NCBI RefSeq assembly: GCF_032716425.1
Contig: NZ_CP090420.1
Location: 682,001-746,000 of the forward strand
Length of the DNA stretch: 64,000 nucleotides
Direction: 5' to 3'
Origin: Pseudoalteromonas sp. N1230-9
GTDB lineage: Bacteria > Pseudomonadota > Gammaproteobacteria > Enterobacterales > Alteromonadaceae
The position numbers and the translations under genes are program-made. Every line of letters starts with the position of its first letter. The first letter of the stretch is position 1. Below the pieces are notes generated by a model. The model ran no database searches. It had not been told where the DNA came from and was given only the letters and a program-made list of their open reading frames with translations. This document shows, in pieces, positions 16,055 to 19,325 of the stretch.

Positions 16055-16120
16055 GGTTTACTGAAATGAGTAAACAGGTATACAACTCGTTTTTGTACAA
16101 AGACGTGTTGCTATCTCTAC

Positions 16121-16155
16121 GAGCGAAGCGAGCGCCTTGAGAGATTTTGTTAGAG
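16121..16155 (-). other. Partial attC site at end of cassette array
   Basis: On the minus strand, CTCTAAC at 16155-16149 is an inverse core containing the stop codon of the last cassette gene. It is followed by AAAATCTCTCAAGG, which looks like a left attC arm. No matching right arm or G-TTRRRY core was found before the hairpins at 16023-16076, so the site seems truncated. The inverse core differs by one base from the complement of this cassette's start core GTTAGAT. Confidence 0.45.
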
Positions 16156-16574
16156 TTTGTGGCGTAAATGATACTCATATTTGTCCTCTCCAATCTTTAC
16201 GAAGCCCAGAGAAAGGTATAAATTTAAAGCACGATTTTGTTTTAATACATTAATCTCTAATACTTTACACGTTGAGTGCTTGATAAACCAAGATAAGATA
16301 GCTTGTCCATACCCTTTGTTTTGTTGTTTAGGCATGATCTGAAGTTGATGAATTTTGCCTATACACCCATCTCTTCGTATTTTAGCATCCCTATTTTTAC
16401 ATCGCCGAAAAGTACAAAATACATACACTCAAAGTTCTCTTTTACCAATTCTAAATGATCGGCGATAGATAGGCTTACATTTGCTTTATCGAAATGTTCA
16501 CTCATGGTGTTTATTCTAAGTTCCAATAAAAAAGGAATATCGTCTTCTTTGACTTTGATAAAAGTGAAATCCAT
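16150..16574 (-). pseudogene. GNAT N-acetyltransferase broken by a -1 frameshift (cassette gene)
   Basis: Two overlapping minus-strand frames form one GNAT protein of about 141 residues. The first (16574 down) begins M-D-F-T-F-I-K-V-K-E-D-D and runs to I-G-M-L-K-Y. The second continues with R-R-D-G-C-I-G-K-I-H-Q-L-Q-I-M and the acetyl-CoA loop Q-N-K-G-Y-G-Q-A, ending N-L-Y-L-S-L-G-F. Adding one A to the run of four at 16380-16383 (T on the plus strand) restores the frame as M-L-K-I-R-R-D-G. A real mutation or a sequencing error are both possible. The stop codon lies inside the attC arm, as in neighbouring cassettes. Confidence 0.75.
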
Positions 16575-16588
16575 TTAAACCTCGAAAA

Positions 16589-16619
16589 ATCTAACAGTCC
16601 CGCTTGAACAGCTTATTAT
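16589..16619 (-). other. Truncated attC site between two GNAT cassettes
   Basis: The minus strand reads an inverse-core-like ACATAAT, a left arm AAGCTGTTCAAGCGGGAC, then directly the core GTTAGAT (16595-16589). The paired right arm is missing, leaving about 31 bases against about 100-128 in the intact sites. The preceding gene's stop codon (16618-16616) is embedded in it. Confidence 0.6.
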
Positions 16620-17086
16620 GTGCCGAGTACACACCTCATTTGCACAGAGTCCAAAACAACGCCATTTTGAGTTGTAAATTTACTAATGCCGTACTTTTTA
16701 AAACCATTACGCATATAAAAATTAACAGCATTTAAAGAAGCATCAAGATCTAAATATTGTAAGCCTGCTTTTTGAGCTTCGCTAAATATAAAGTTCAGCA
16801 TTTCTTGCCCAATGCCTTTACCTATATATGTAGGTAAAACAAATATAGAATTTAACTTTAGGTTTTTAATATTCAGTTCAGCAAAGCATACTACTTTTCC
16901 ATTACTGATTTTTACGAATTGATCATTACCTTTATTTGCGCTTTCGATAAAACGCTCAGCCCAAGGTTGACCAATCCAATCTAAAACTTGTGATGTTTCA
17001 TAGTTTCTAATGCAAAGTGCTTTGGCTGACTCTCTGAATACTAAGTCCATTTCTTCATAGTCTGATTTTTCTGCTTTTCGAATCAT
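16616..17086 (-). CDS. GNAT-family N-acetyltransferase (integron cassette gene)
   Basis: A 156-residue protein with the GNAT fold: M-I-R-K-A-E-K-S-D-Y-E-E-M at the start, the central strand L-N-S-I-F-V-L-P-T-Y-I-G, and acetyl-CoA loop K-G-I-G-Q-E-M-L. The ending L-N-A-V-N-F-Y-M-R-N-G-F-K-K-Y-G is typical of the YafP/ElaA-like branch. It transfers acetyl from acetyl-CoA to an unknown amine. Its cassette runs from the core at 17113-17107 to the truncated attC at 16589-16619. GNATs are common integron cargo. Only a short A-rich leader separates the core from the ATG. Confidence 0.85.
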   Translation of the reverse strand: MIRKAEKSDYEEMDLVFRESAKALCIRNYETSQVLDWIGQPWAERFIESANKGNDQFVKISNGKVVCFAELNIKNLKLNSIFVLPTYIGKGIGQEMLNFIFSEAQKAGLQYLDLDASLNAVNFYMRNGFKKYGISKFTTQNGVVLDSVQMRCVLGT

Positions 17087-17106
17087 TACTTAACTTTCCT
17101 TAAGGG

Positions 17107-17234
17107 ACCTAACACCCAAGTAAGGGGTGAACAACGCTACCACCTTACCTAAAGCATTGTGCCATAAACACTAAATTTGAAGAAGCAGCAAAAATGCTAA
17201 GCGTTGTGAATCCCTCTTGAGCAGTTTGTTATGT
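17107..17234 (-). other. attC recombination site (128 bp, Vibrio-repeat-like)
   Basis: On the minus strand it opens with the inverse core ACATAAC (17234-17228), which holds the stop codon of the upstream gene, and ends with the core GTTAGGT (17113-17107, matching GTTRRRY). The arms pair imperfectly: ACAACGC with GCGTTGT, AGGG with CCCT, CAAG with CTTG, with an unpaired middle. Length and the opening TAACAAACTGCTCAAGAGGG recall the Vibrio cholerae VCR family. Confidence 0.88.
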
Positions 17235-17603
17235 GGATGCTCCCACCAACACCAAAACGGTAATTGCACCAAACAGTATCCATGATAGGTGTTTTCCTTT
17301 TGATCCCAATAGGGCCGTCAGAAAGTGCACACCAAATGTAATAGCGATTATTTGGCCAACCAGTTGTTTACCAAACTCTGGCTGCACTAGAGCCACAACA
17401 ATGCCAGCTAGCCCCAACCAGGCAACTGAGGTTAAGTGCCATGCAAATCTCAACGTACGTTTAGTAAAATCATCGCTTCCCAAGATCTTTGGCAAGTTGT
17501 CACGCTTAAACAACCTAGAAAGGATAAAGCGTTCTCCGAGGTAAGAATGAGCAATAGATACAACCATTAGCAAGAAAGCTGCGAGATATAAAAGACTTTC
17601 CAT
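17229..17603 (-). CDS. Small membrane protein (integron cassette gene)
   Basis: A 124-residue protein. The ATG at 17603 is chosen because GGAGG lies 5 bases upstream; two earlier in-frame ATGs overlap the ribosome site itself. Four hydrophobic segments can be seen (about residues 3-20, 44-63, 72-92 and 101-122), with a basic loop R-L-F-K-R-D-N-L-P-K between the first two. I recognise no family. Its cassette spans 17113-17623: the start core GTTATGT and end inverse core ACATAAC are exact complements. The stop codon is within the attC arm. Confidence 0.78.
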   Translation of the reverse strand: MESLLYLAAFLLMVVSIAHSYLGERFILSRLFKRDNLPKILGSDDFTKRTLRFAWHLTSVAWLGLAGIVVALVQPEFGKQLVGQIIAITFGVHFLTALLGSKGKHLSWILFGAITVLVLVGAST

Positions 17604-17617
17604 TTTCTCCTCCATCC

Positions 17618-17663
17618 ACATAACATTTTAGTATTTATGCAACACGCTGTTTGAGTTGCATAA
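17618..17663 (-). other. Cassette start core GTTATGT with adjacent hairpin
   Basis: The minus strand carries GTTATGT at 17624-17618, just upstream of the membrane-protein gene. Its exact complement ends the same cassette at 17228-17234. A 9-bp stem (17635-17643 with 17655-17663, TTATGCAAC arm) lies immediately before it and may be part of the preceding, atypical attC, whose left arm would start near 17835 (ATAATAAACGCTGAGC). That gives about 215 bases, longer than usual for attC. Confidence 0.55.
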
Positions 17664-17987
17664 TCGCTTGTTGGACTGAGCCGCTACCAGCTCGGTGTGT
17701 CAGAGTTGGTGTTGTTTATGCTATGGCTTTACTTATAAAAAATAGGCTTTTTGGAGACTCTCACTTTCCTCGCTAATTTAATCAGCTTAGCTAGTGTTAA
17801 GTAAGCTTTCCCTGCATTGCTCAGCGTTTATTATGTATTCATTACACCTAAATTTTCATTAATAAGCAATTATATTTTTACGTACACGGAGGCCGCTAGT
17901 CCGAGCAATTAAGCGGGTTAACTAACTGATTTTAAGCAGCTACCTAGCTGCTCAACCGTTATGCTTTGAGTAAATCCCGTACTACGC

Positions 17988-18116
17988 TCAAATTCGACTC
18001 CAAAGCATTTTCTTTGAATGATTTTGGGAAGTCCACTTGGCGAAAAAAGGCAAAACTAAGCCATTATCTCTTTCACCTAGAAAGTCGTAGATAAATCCTA
18101 GATTATTGTCCTTCAA
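17988..18116 (-). CDS. Possible 42-residue ORF in a nearly gene-less cassette
   Basis: After the attC at 18123-18221, the frame from a TTG at 18116 encodes 42 residues, L-K-D-N-N-L-G-F-I-Y-D-F-L-G-E-R-D-N, then F-F-A-K-W-T-S-Q-N. The composition looks protein-like and the frame stays open upstream through the attC arm. There is no good ribosome site and no recognisable family. It may be a remnant of a cassette gene. The rest of this 505-base cassette (17624-18128) holds no other ORF, only an 8-bp-stem hairpin at 17935-17952. Confidence 0.25.
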   Translation of the reverse strand: MKDNNLGFIYDFLGERDNGLVLPFFAKWTSQNHSKKMLWSRI

Positions 18117-18122
18117 AATTTT

Positions 18123-18221
18123 GTCTAACGCCCTGTTAACAGGCAAAAAGTTGTTGGCTAAAATAGTGACGAAGGAACAAAAGCCAACAATTTTTTGTCC
18201 TCGTTTAACAGCTTGTTAGCT
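18123..18221 (-). other. attC recombination site (99 bp)
   Basis: The minus strand runs from inverse core AGCTAAC (18221-18215, containing the SMI1 gene stop) to core GTTAGAC (18129-18123, a full GTTRRRY match). The two arms pair strongly: CTGTTAA, AGG, CAAAAA and TTGTTGGCT all find complements in register. This is a textbook folded attC hairpin. Confidence 0.9.
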
Positions 18222-18839
18222 GCAATTATGGCCAGGCACATATTGCCAAGTAGGCGAACTAAACCAATTACCAGGATCAATTTCACTTTCTGGTTGAAGC
18301 CAATGTACACCATCCTCTAGCGCATCCTCTTGAAGAGAATATTTACCTGAAAGTAAATCAGATGTGAATTTTTCAATATAATTTTCTACTGAGTCAGCAA
18401 GTTTGAGAGCTACATTATGCTCATAGTCTATTAAAATTACTTGCCCATAAGTACCATTAATGTCGGGGTCGAGATCTACGCATATTAAACAGGAACCCGA
18501 ATCATCACCAATAGGAACCCTTAACTTTCCGAAGCTATAACCTGCTTTGATACCATCATCTGAATAGTTTAAATTAGTTTTATCATTAGGTAGTTCAAAT
18601 TTGGTAATTTGACTAATTGTTTGCTCTATTGAAATGAATGGCATGCCGTACACTAAATTAGCAAACATATCTGGATTTATTCCATTATACGTTTGATATA
18701 AAGTCCAAAGGCTTTCAGGTAAGTTTTTACCTACTAAAATCTCCAGTTCATTAATTTTATCTGTCGATGCAGGTTCTTGAAGCGCCTCTACAATTTTAGG
18801 TGCATGATTCGATAGCCATTCCGTTGCTTTTTCTAACAT
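18216..18839 (-). CDS. SMI1/KNR4 (SUKH) family protein (integron cassette gene)
   Basis: A 207-residue protein with SUKH-fold signatures: I-N-E-L-E-I-L-V-G-K-N-L-P-E-S-L near residue 29, L-Y-Q-T-Y-N-G-I-N-P near residue 47, and the acidic G-D-D-S-G-S-C-L-I-C-V-D-L-D-P near residue 119. Bacterial SUKH proteins often act as immunity proteins against polymorphic toxins, though many are orphans, and no toxin gene lies next to it. Its cassette spans 18129-18877, and the start core GTTAGCT and end inverse core AGCTAAC are exact complements. GGAG precedes the ATG. Confidence 0.85.
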   Translation of the reverse strand: MLEKATEWLSNHAPKIVEALQEPASTDKINELEILVGKNLPESLWTLYQTYNGINPDMFANLVYGMPFISIEQTISQITKFELPNDKTNLNYSDDGIKAGYSFGKLRVPIGDDSGSCLICVDLDPDINGTYGQVILIDYEHNVALKLADSVENYIEKFTSDLLSGKYSLQEDALEDGVHWLQPESEIDPGNWFSSPTWQYVPGHNCS

Positions 18840-18871
18840 ATATACTCTCCAGTTGAAACCAAATCTATTGC

Positions 18872-18878
18872 AGCTAAC
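18872..18878 (-). other. Core site at the 5' edge of the cassette array
   Basis: GTTAGCT on the minus strand lies 33 bases upstream of the SMI1-type gene and is the exact complement of that cassette's end core. A second GTTAGCT occurs 100 bases further up (18978-18972). The stretch between may be a half attC, an attI remnant or unrelated. No integrase gene lies upstream in the window. Confidence 0.55.
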
Positions 18879-19325
18879 AATTTAATAGTGCGCAAATTGC
18901 GCAAATTTCTACCACACAACTGCCCATCCTTATGATTACTACATTTTTATCAAATTAACTAACCTTTTACTAGCTAACAAAATATTTTTAGTTTGGTAAA
19001 GTGGTCTTACGATAAACATGCGCAAATTGCTCATTTTCCTGAATATAGGGGAAAGTTGTAAATTCTGAATATAAAAACCATATCAAAAGAAAATATTCAA
19101 TGTTTGCTGTTTGCTGTTTGCTTAAAGCCACCTTTAAATCAATTACGTTAACTCATTTTGGAACAGAAATGAGTTACTTCTTAATAACTGTTGCAGGCAC
19201 CAAAAATCTGTTTAGCTTCCATAAAAAGCATCTTACTTCCTTATCAAACAACTAAGCTCGGTAAATAATCGCTGATGCAGTAACTCTAGAACATCGGCCG
19301 AAGAAAATCCTTGGTACTTCTAAGG
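18879..19325. other. 447-base AT-rich stretch without genes
   Basis: It contains a short direct repeat GCGCAAATT at about 18891-18908 (recurring as GCGCAAATTGC near 19020) and a triple TGTTTGC run at about 19100-19122. No ORF with a ribosome site was found. It forms the boundary between the cassette array and the YfhL gene. Confidence 0.5.

Follow-up and report, generated by a model that had tools for sequence, protein, structure and literature searches.

A mosaic cassette array headed by an orphan attI region in Pseudoalteromonas, probably filled by an integrase acting in trans

How does an array of integron gene cassettes come to stand in a genome with no integrase beside it? The question is raised by positions 16121-19110 of the 64,000 nucleotides analysed here (the window, C2:682001-746000) from Pseudoalteromonas sp. 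N1230-9 (G000), whose genome of 4.63 Mb lies on two contigs, C2 being 899,511 bp long. The original prediction, made from the letters of the window, had taken the locus for a cluster of attC sites lacking an integron integrase (CALIN) or for the tail of a sedentary chromosomal integron. CALIN is the right term, as models detect two full attC sites, the minimum for that class, and no integron integrase lies nearby. We consider it probable, beyond this, that the locus is a decayed mosaic array headed by an orphan attI and filled by an integrase in trans. The attI would belong to a dispersed set of copies that have no integrase; behind it, an integron integrase working in trans would have put cassettes of different origin, some of the host's type and some with Vibrio-like attC; and an IS91-family insertion sequence (IS) would have inserted at a core site within the array and later shrunk to its right end. 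The left part of the array is in decay, as its truncated attC sites and a frameshifted gene show.

Layout of the array and its attC sites

Sites were sought with two covariance models: R1, whose training set was the window site at 18123-18220 plus six attC from the integron resident in the host (the window site at 17107-17233 being left out), and R2, retrained on 76 hits with both window attC among them. Read on the minus strand, the array runs in the following order, the cassette start cut by the IS measuring 168 bp.

18878..19110, minus strand: putative orphan attI region without an adjoining intI; its core G is at 18878 (G^TTAGC)
18129..18877, minus strand: SMI1/KNR4 (SUKH-1) cassette; attC 18123-18220; PF09346
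17961..18128, minus strand: start of a further cassette, cut by the IS end, between the attC core G^TT (18129) and the limit of IS homology
17988-18146, minus strand: 52-aa open reading frame (ORF) fragment in the cut cassette; no Pfam match
17625..17960, minus strand: remnant of the right end of an IS91-family element, directly beside the next core site
17113..17623, minus strand: cassette for a 130-aa membrane-type protein; attC about 17107-17235, Vibrio-like
16595..17112, minus strand: cassette for a GNAT acetyltransferase; only the first part of its attC is left, and neither R1 nor R2 matches there
16121..16594, minus strand: frameshifted GNAT cassette; truncated attC at its left end

Two cassettes have a full attC, two a truncated one and one is a remnant cut by the IS end, five units where four to five had been predicted. 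Their leftward orientation is confirmed. The array reaches 18877 and its attI head extends to about 19110; neither that head (18878-19110) nor the IS91-family right end (17625-17960) figured in the original prediction. The predicted cargo of SMI1/KNR4, two GNATs and a small membrane-type protein stands, except that the second GNAT is split by a frameshift between overlapping ORFs at 16359-16574 and 16150-16428, the latter carrying the GNAT match. Pfam scores are 55 bits for SMI1/KNR4 (PF09346) and 47 bits for the GNAT of 16595..17112, and a Pfam search gave no match for the 130-aa protein. A protein 93% identical to SMI1 is found in Paraglaciecola; the membrane-type protein has an 86% identical relative in Vibrio amylolyticus, and the GNAT an 83% identical one in a gammaproteobacterial metagenome-assembled genome. 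To judge from its SUKH-1 match, the SMI1 gene is a possible lone immunity gene.

The two full attC sites are no more than two bases off their predicted places. The site at 18123-18220 (minus strand) scores 95 bits with R1, for which it is a training sequence, and 97 bits with R2; the site at 17107-17233 (minus strand), outside the R1 training, scores 27.8 bits (E 9e-5) with R1 and 55 bits with R2. The remaining two R2 matches in the window are an opposite-strand shadow of the 18123 site and a 14-bit match (E 0.87). Across 120 kb of neighbouring control DNA from the same replicon (L009, L010, L012-L015), R1 gave no match at E<=1 and R2 one weak match (E 0.076). The 18123 site folds better than any of 200 shuffled sequences (z -4.3 to -4.6). 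In the SMI1 cassette the start (18867-18880) and the inverse core of the attC (18213-18226) are exact complements over 14 nt, and the membrane-protein cassette shows the same pairing of start and inverse core; an exact complement between the two is expected of a circularising cassette.

The 18123 attC aligns with the sites of the host's own integron and is of the same type. Plasmid records with DNA similar to the 17107 site number 112, of which 70 are from Vibrio, 25 from Pseudomonas, 6 from Shewanella, 3 from Pseudoalteromonas and 8 from others; among the 15 listed, 14 are from Vibrio and 13 are 75-94.5% identical. Because attC types and protein relatives differ, the cassettes appear to come from mixed sources. 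At the V. amylolyticus locus of the membrane-protein relative R2 found no attC (16 of 41 loci given), so the argument for a Vibrio origin comes solely from attC resemblance and protein identity.

A scan against Rfam yielded nothing at gathering score; GcvB (E 0.029) and Arthropod 7SK (E 4.4), far under that score within the array, were taken as chance. Promoter-like sites numbered 12 against 11.4 expected, and the same scan gave no terminator-like site.

An attI region dispersed without integrase genes

The head of the array is recognised by homology. We searched 108 genomes of the same genus with the 236 bases that end at the SMI1 cassette start (E<=1e-8; the best seven candidates per genome were scored, making the counts lower bounds), and these bases recur in at least 32 of the 108, and at least five times in G000. 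They are 83-90% identical to four other array heads of G000 and, over query positions 24-236, 78% identical to a copy in G028 that has an intact intI 29 bases beyond its far end; because that copy adjoins an intact intI, lying between it and a first cassette, the window stretch is an attI region. Its junction reads ATTAAATTG^TTAGC, and the SMI1 cassette follows. The possibility that the stretch right of SMI1 is a second IS end was dropped once the G028 copy turned up beside intI. The same homologies contradict the view that this is an ordinary CALIN, its cassettes having entered a chance GTT site by attG-type integration and its likeness to attI being coincidental. Although both CALINs and off-site integration are documented, in passages of PMC12444791, we find this explanation of the window array very hard to credit.

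Thirty attI loci from 30 genomes were examined with flanks of up to 1.5 kb. The core is reached in 28, where 24 read GTTA, three bear the IS91-family element and one is altered. The IS is missing from 25 core-reaching loci, G028 among them. Downstream, 17 of these show an exact 11-nt inverse core, 18 an attC and 20 at least one of the two; 3 have an attC upstream. All five G000 copies have an attC on the same strand within about 1 kb downstream.

An intI gene adjoins the attI in one of the 30 loci, that of G028; recombinase matches at 28-29% identity in L244, L246 and L250 belong to the IS91-family element. A full second integron may once have stood in the window, its intI being deleted and its attI left in place, with the same happening separately elsewhere. 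This would fit the extent of the conserved stretch, which runs from roughly the start of intI to the core, as in G028, and decay of intI is common across the genus, where several matches contain stops or are partial. However, the copies share a 5' limit: homology in most pairs starts some 225-300 nt away from the core, the DNA further out being unrelated (a few pairs stay alike for 1.2 kb, and may be one site in two genomes). Nor is there a remnant of intI in the fetched flanks of 29 of the 30 copies or, by tblastn, at 14-24 kb of the window. Repeated loss of intI from full integrons is in our estimate unlikely, while retaining real weight. A CTG-N10-CAG palindrome, which we take to be a LexA-type operator motif, is kept in G028 and absent from eight of nine orphan copies aligned, G066 keeping it. 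Four genomes (G001, G003, G072 and G085) have attI-like copies and no integron integrase above the family cut-off.

The integron-integrase family search had seven matches in the G000 genome (E<=0.001) and none in the window, just as had been predicted. The nearest lies about 64 kb left of the array, and a single one exceeds the family cut-off (C2:633531-634478, minus strand, with an in-frame TGA). Right of this intI is the resident integron, with six model-detected attC on the plus strand (C2:635022-638868), one more probable short attC seen by eye, and long ordinary-looking ORFs directly past the array. One might suppose that the window array is the tail of this sedentary integron, relocated by rearrangement, as both share a replicon and the SMI1 attC is of the resident type. 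But the window array (C2:698.1-700.9k) is on the minus strand, about 59 kb from the last resident attC, the resident integron faces away from it, and the two attI regions are alike only in the last bases before the core. Opposite orientation, a separation of some 60 kb and an attI of its own, of a different type, contradict relocation, which we regard as highly improbable; on place, orientation and attI type we reject the predicted alternative of a sedentary integron's tail. The window array is also not a complete integron, for no intI adjoins its attI. Genome-wide, R2 finds at least 25 matches at E<=0.001 in G000, one of them an opposite-strand shadow (a lower bound, the best 150 of 1530 candidates being scored). 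In the complete-looking G069 there are seven integron-integrase matches, mostly halves of broken genes.

An IS91-family element at integron core sites

The stretch 17612-17914 was considered as an attC or attI and dropped from that role, since the repeat is the right end of an IS91-family element and 31 intI loci gave short, weak matches only (E 0.099 or worse). As a 303-bp query, with the best six candidates per genome scored, it matched in 66 of the 108 genomes, G000 included. A full copy of about 2.3 kb encodes a tyrosine recombinase and the Y2/IS91 transposase that defines the family (in L220, PF04986 at 173 bits and Zn_Tnp_IS91 at 94 bits); the window piece has no transposase gene. Plasmid records matching the IS are from Pseudoalteromonas in 12 of 14 cases.

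We examined 90 IS loci (30 and 60 more), which yielded 92 right ends. A fixed short sequence, GTTA, whose GTT may belong either to the IS or to its target, abuts 83 of the 92. With R1, trained among these loci on the window copy only, an attC at E<=0.001 was found in 42 of the 90 loci at any position; with R2, whose training includes matches from these loci, an attC lies downstream on the same strand at 45 of the 92 ends and upstream at 4. An attC or an exact inverse core lies downstream of 57 ends, and the other 35 bear no such cassette signature, so that targeting is not absolute. The 11-nt inverse core was present at 36 of 79 usable ends, at 33 of 69 after similar downstream sequences had been removed, and at 1 of 1168 control GTTA sites; when starts were swapped between IS copies, it was found at a mean of 1.4 of the 79, with a maximum of 6.

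These counts suggest that the IS arrives at core sites by targeting them. Alternatively, the integrase could dock cassettes at the IS end, which would then itself be a recombination site, the IS having chosen no core. Its end is attI-like, reading AAATACTAAAATG^TTA, and with a GTT at either junction of the IS, the direction cannot be read from these. However, seven loci (L218, L219, L223, L224, L225, L246 and L250) have the IS beginning precisely at an attI core, and GTTA follows it in five of these, as insertion into attI predicts; furthermore, three copies in G080 have 83-87 extra bp in common past the left end, as rolling-circle overshoot would leave. Docking at the IS end accordingly strikes us as improbable. 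A tail near TTACYGMATWAATACTC, common to array ends (the 3' ends of L213 and L216; also L215 and L106), is similar to the final bases at the right end of the IS91-family element.

The orphan attI copies and the IS could together form part of a larger scheme, which we put forward tentatively, as something short of an even prospect: a multi-platform integron system in which an attI-only element of about 250 bp has been copied widely, each docking site being filled in trans by whatever integrase is present. Because the IS is found repeatedly directly downstream of orphan attI, the core-homing element may have spread attI by rolling-circle overshoot.

Strain differences and known systems

In G000 and G102, a second strain of the same species, one orphan-attI locus (C2:332k and C11:504k, respectively) is 96% identical up to the attI core and 97% identical from a shared cassette on. 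Between these points G000 has about 960 bp with two cassettes, and G102 about 750 bp with one other cassette. A second break in the same pair falls at a second attI, intact in G102 and with an altered core in G000. Cassettes at the orphan attI are changed at one of the two loci compared between the two strains.

At the window locus, G102 retains yfhL and lacks the left flank, and no attC match was found in 16 kb around its yfhL. The closest species, G057, keeps both flanks of the array (94-95% identity), and between them has a short IS91-family end and then, at the core site, another cassette, whose 178-aa product has no Pfam match and whose attC scores 34 bits (R2); the same order with the same spacers in all relatives, which the original prediction had named as grounds for abandoning the idea of an array, is therefore not what is seen. 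Within 8 kb of yfhL, attC matches at E<=0.01 are also present in G060, G012, G058 and G076, and in the stretches examined near yfhL of G055, G025, G078, G071 and G049 there is none at that threshold. The S41-peptidase gene that lies left of the window array is broken in G057 (C24:205868-206601, L106). Beside yfhL in G012 and G058 (L109 6341-10089; L110 3854-7611) is a pair of genes for proteins of 552 aa (weak phage-integrase match) and 528 aa (no Pfam match), which may be a further integrating element in this position.

Several observations weigh against an orphan attI filled in trans. The 17107 attC folds no better than its shuffles (z -1.3 to -1.5); 5 of the 25 core-reaching attI loci without the IS have no cassette signature; another orphan-attI array is 99% identical in G000 and G102, with no change; and an empty attI-plus-tail element was found in none of the 108 genomes by one pattern with up to 3 mismatches, a single pattern being no proof of absence. 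Moreover, an intact integrase was seen in neither strain of the species. Their intI genes contain in-frame stops, that of G102 (C11:629059-629910) being partial with an in-frame TGA, and that of G000 has a different attI. Integration would thus be past, or the work of an enzyme since gone. Filling of the orphan attI in trans remains, to our minds, the probable history of the window array.

Imperfect palindromes of the type AACTC..TTTG.CC..GAGTT stand on both sides of the array, as follows.

16083..16110, no strand assigned: imperfect palindrome at the left edge (inverted repeat I1); a similar motif stands at the same edge in G057
19150..19175, no strand assigned: similar palindrome at the right edge, just beyond attI, seen by eye in the sequence

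A related palindromic repeat occurs at the end of the resident integron (G000 C2:638891-638929) and at that of another orphan-attI array (G000 C1:2028215-2028268).

Stray attI regions in G000 and its relatives may help to account for cassette arrays at a great distance from an integrase. If many CALINs are headed by kinds of orphan attI that annotation overlooks, such arrays would in part be satellite platforms of a trans-acting integrase, and that view, if true, would alter the reading of cassette arrays. A strong core-site bias in an IS91-family element would give mobile DNA one more way to reshape integrons. In the open-licence PMC papers searched (subscription papers lay outside that scope) we found no description of dispersed attI without integrase; a review among them concerns cassette expression (PMC8876359).

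Among known systems, CALINs are closest to the window array. Passages of PMC9229058 (Shewanella) and PMC12444791 (Xanthomonas, away from intI) describe them, like this array, as attC cassettes scattered in the genome with no integrase nearby; the window array differs in having at its start an attI region that is repeated at dispersed places. With a sedentary chromosomal integron it shares an attI, leftward cassettes and attC of the host's type, but it has no intI, and there are several such platforms per genome. The delta-attI gene cassettes of mobile integrons, as described in PMC12901181, are alike in that an attI without its own intI takes part in arrays, whereas there the attI piece replaces a cassette's attC and here it heads the array. 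As for the IS, ISShvi3, an IS91-like element that passages of PMC9229058 place beside an attC in Shewanella, likewise combines a Y2 transposase with a zinc-binding domain and an end at an attC; the present element, compared with what those passages report, shows its core-site bias over many copies, attI cores included. IS1111-attC elements, known here from entries in the reference lists of PMC9229058 and PMC12444791, are also insertion sequences that target integron recombination sites, and, as far as such entries tell, their transposase is of a different family. What sets the window array apart among CALINs is its orphan attI, the dispersal of that attI, and the bias of an IS91-family element towards the same core sites.

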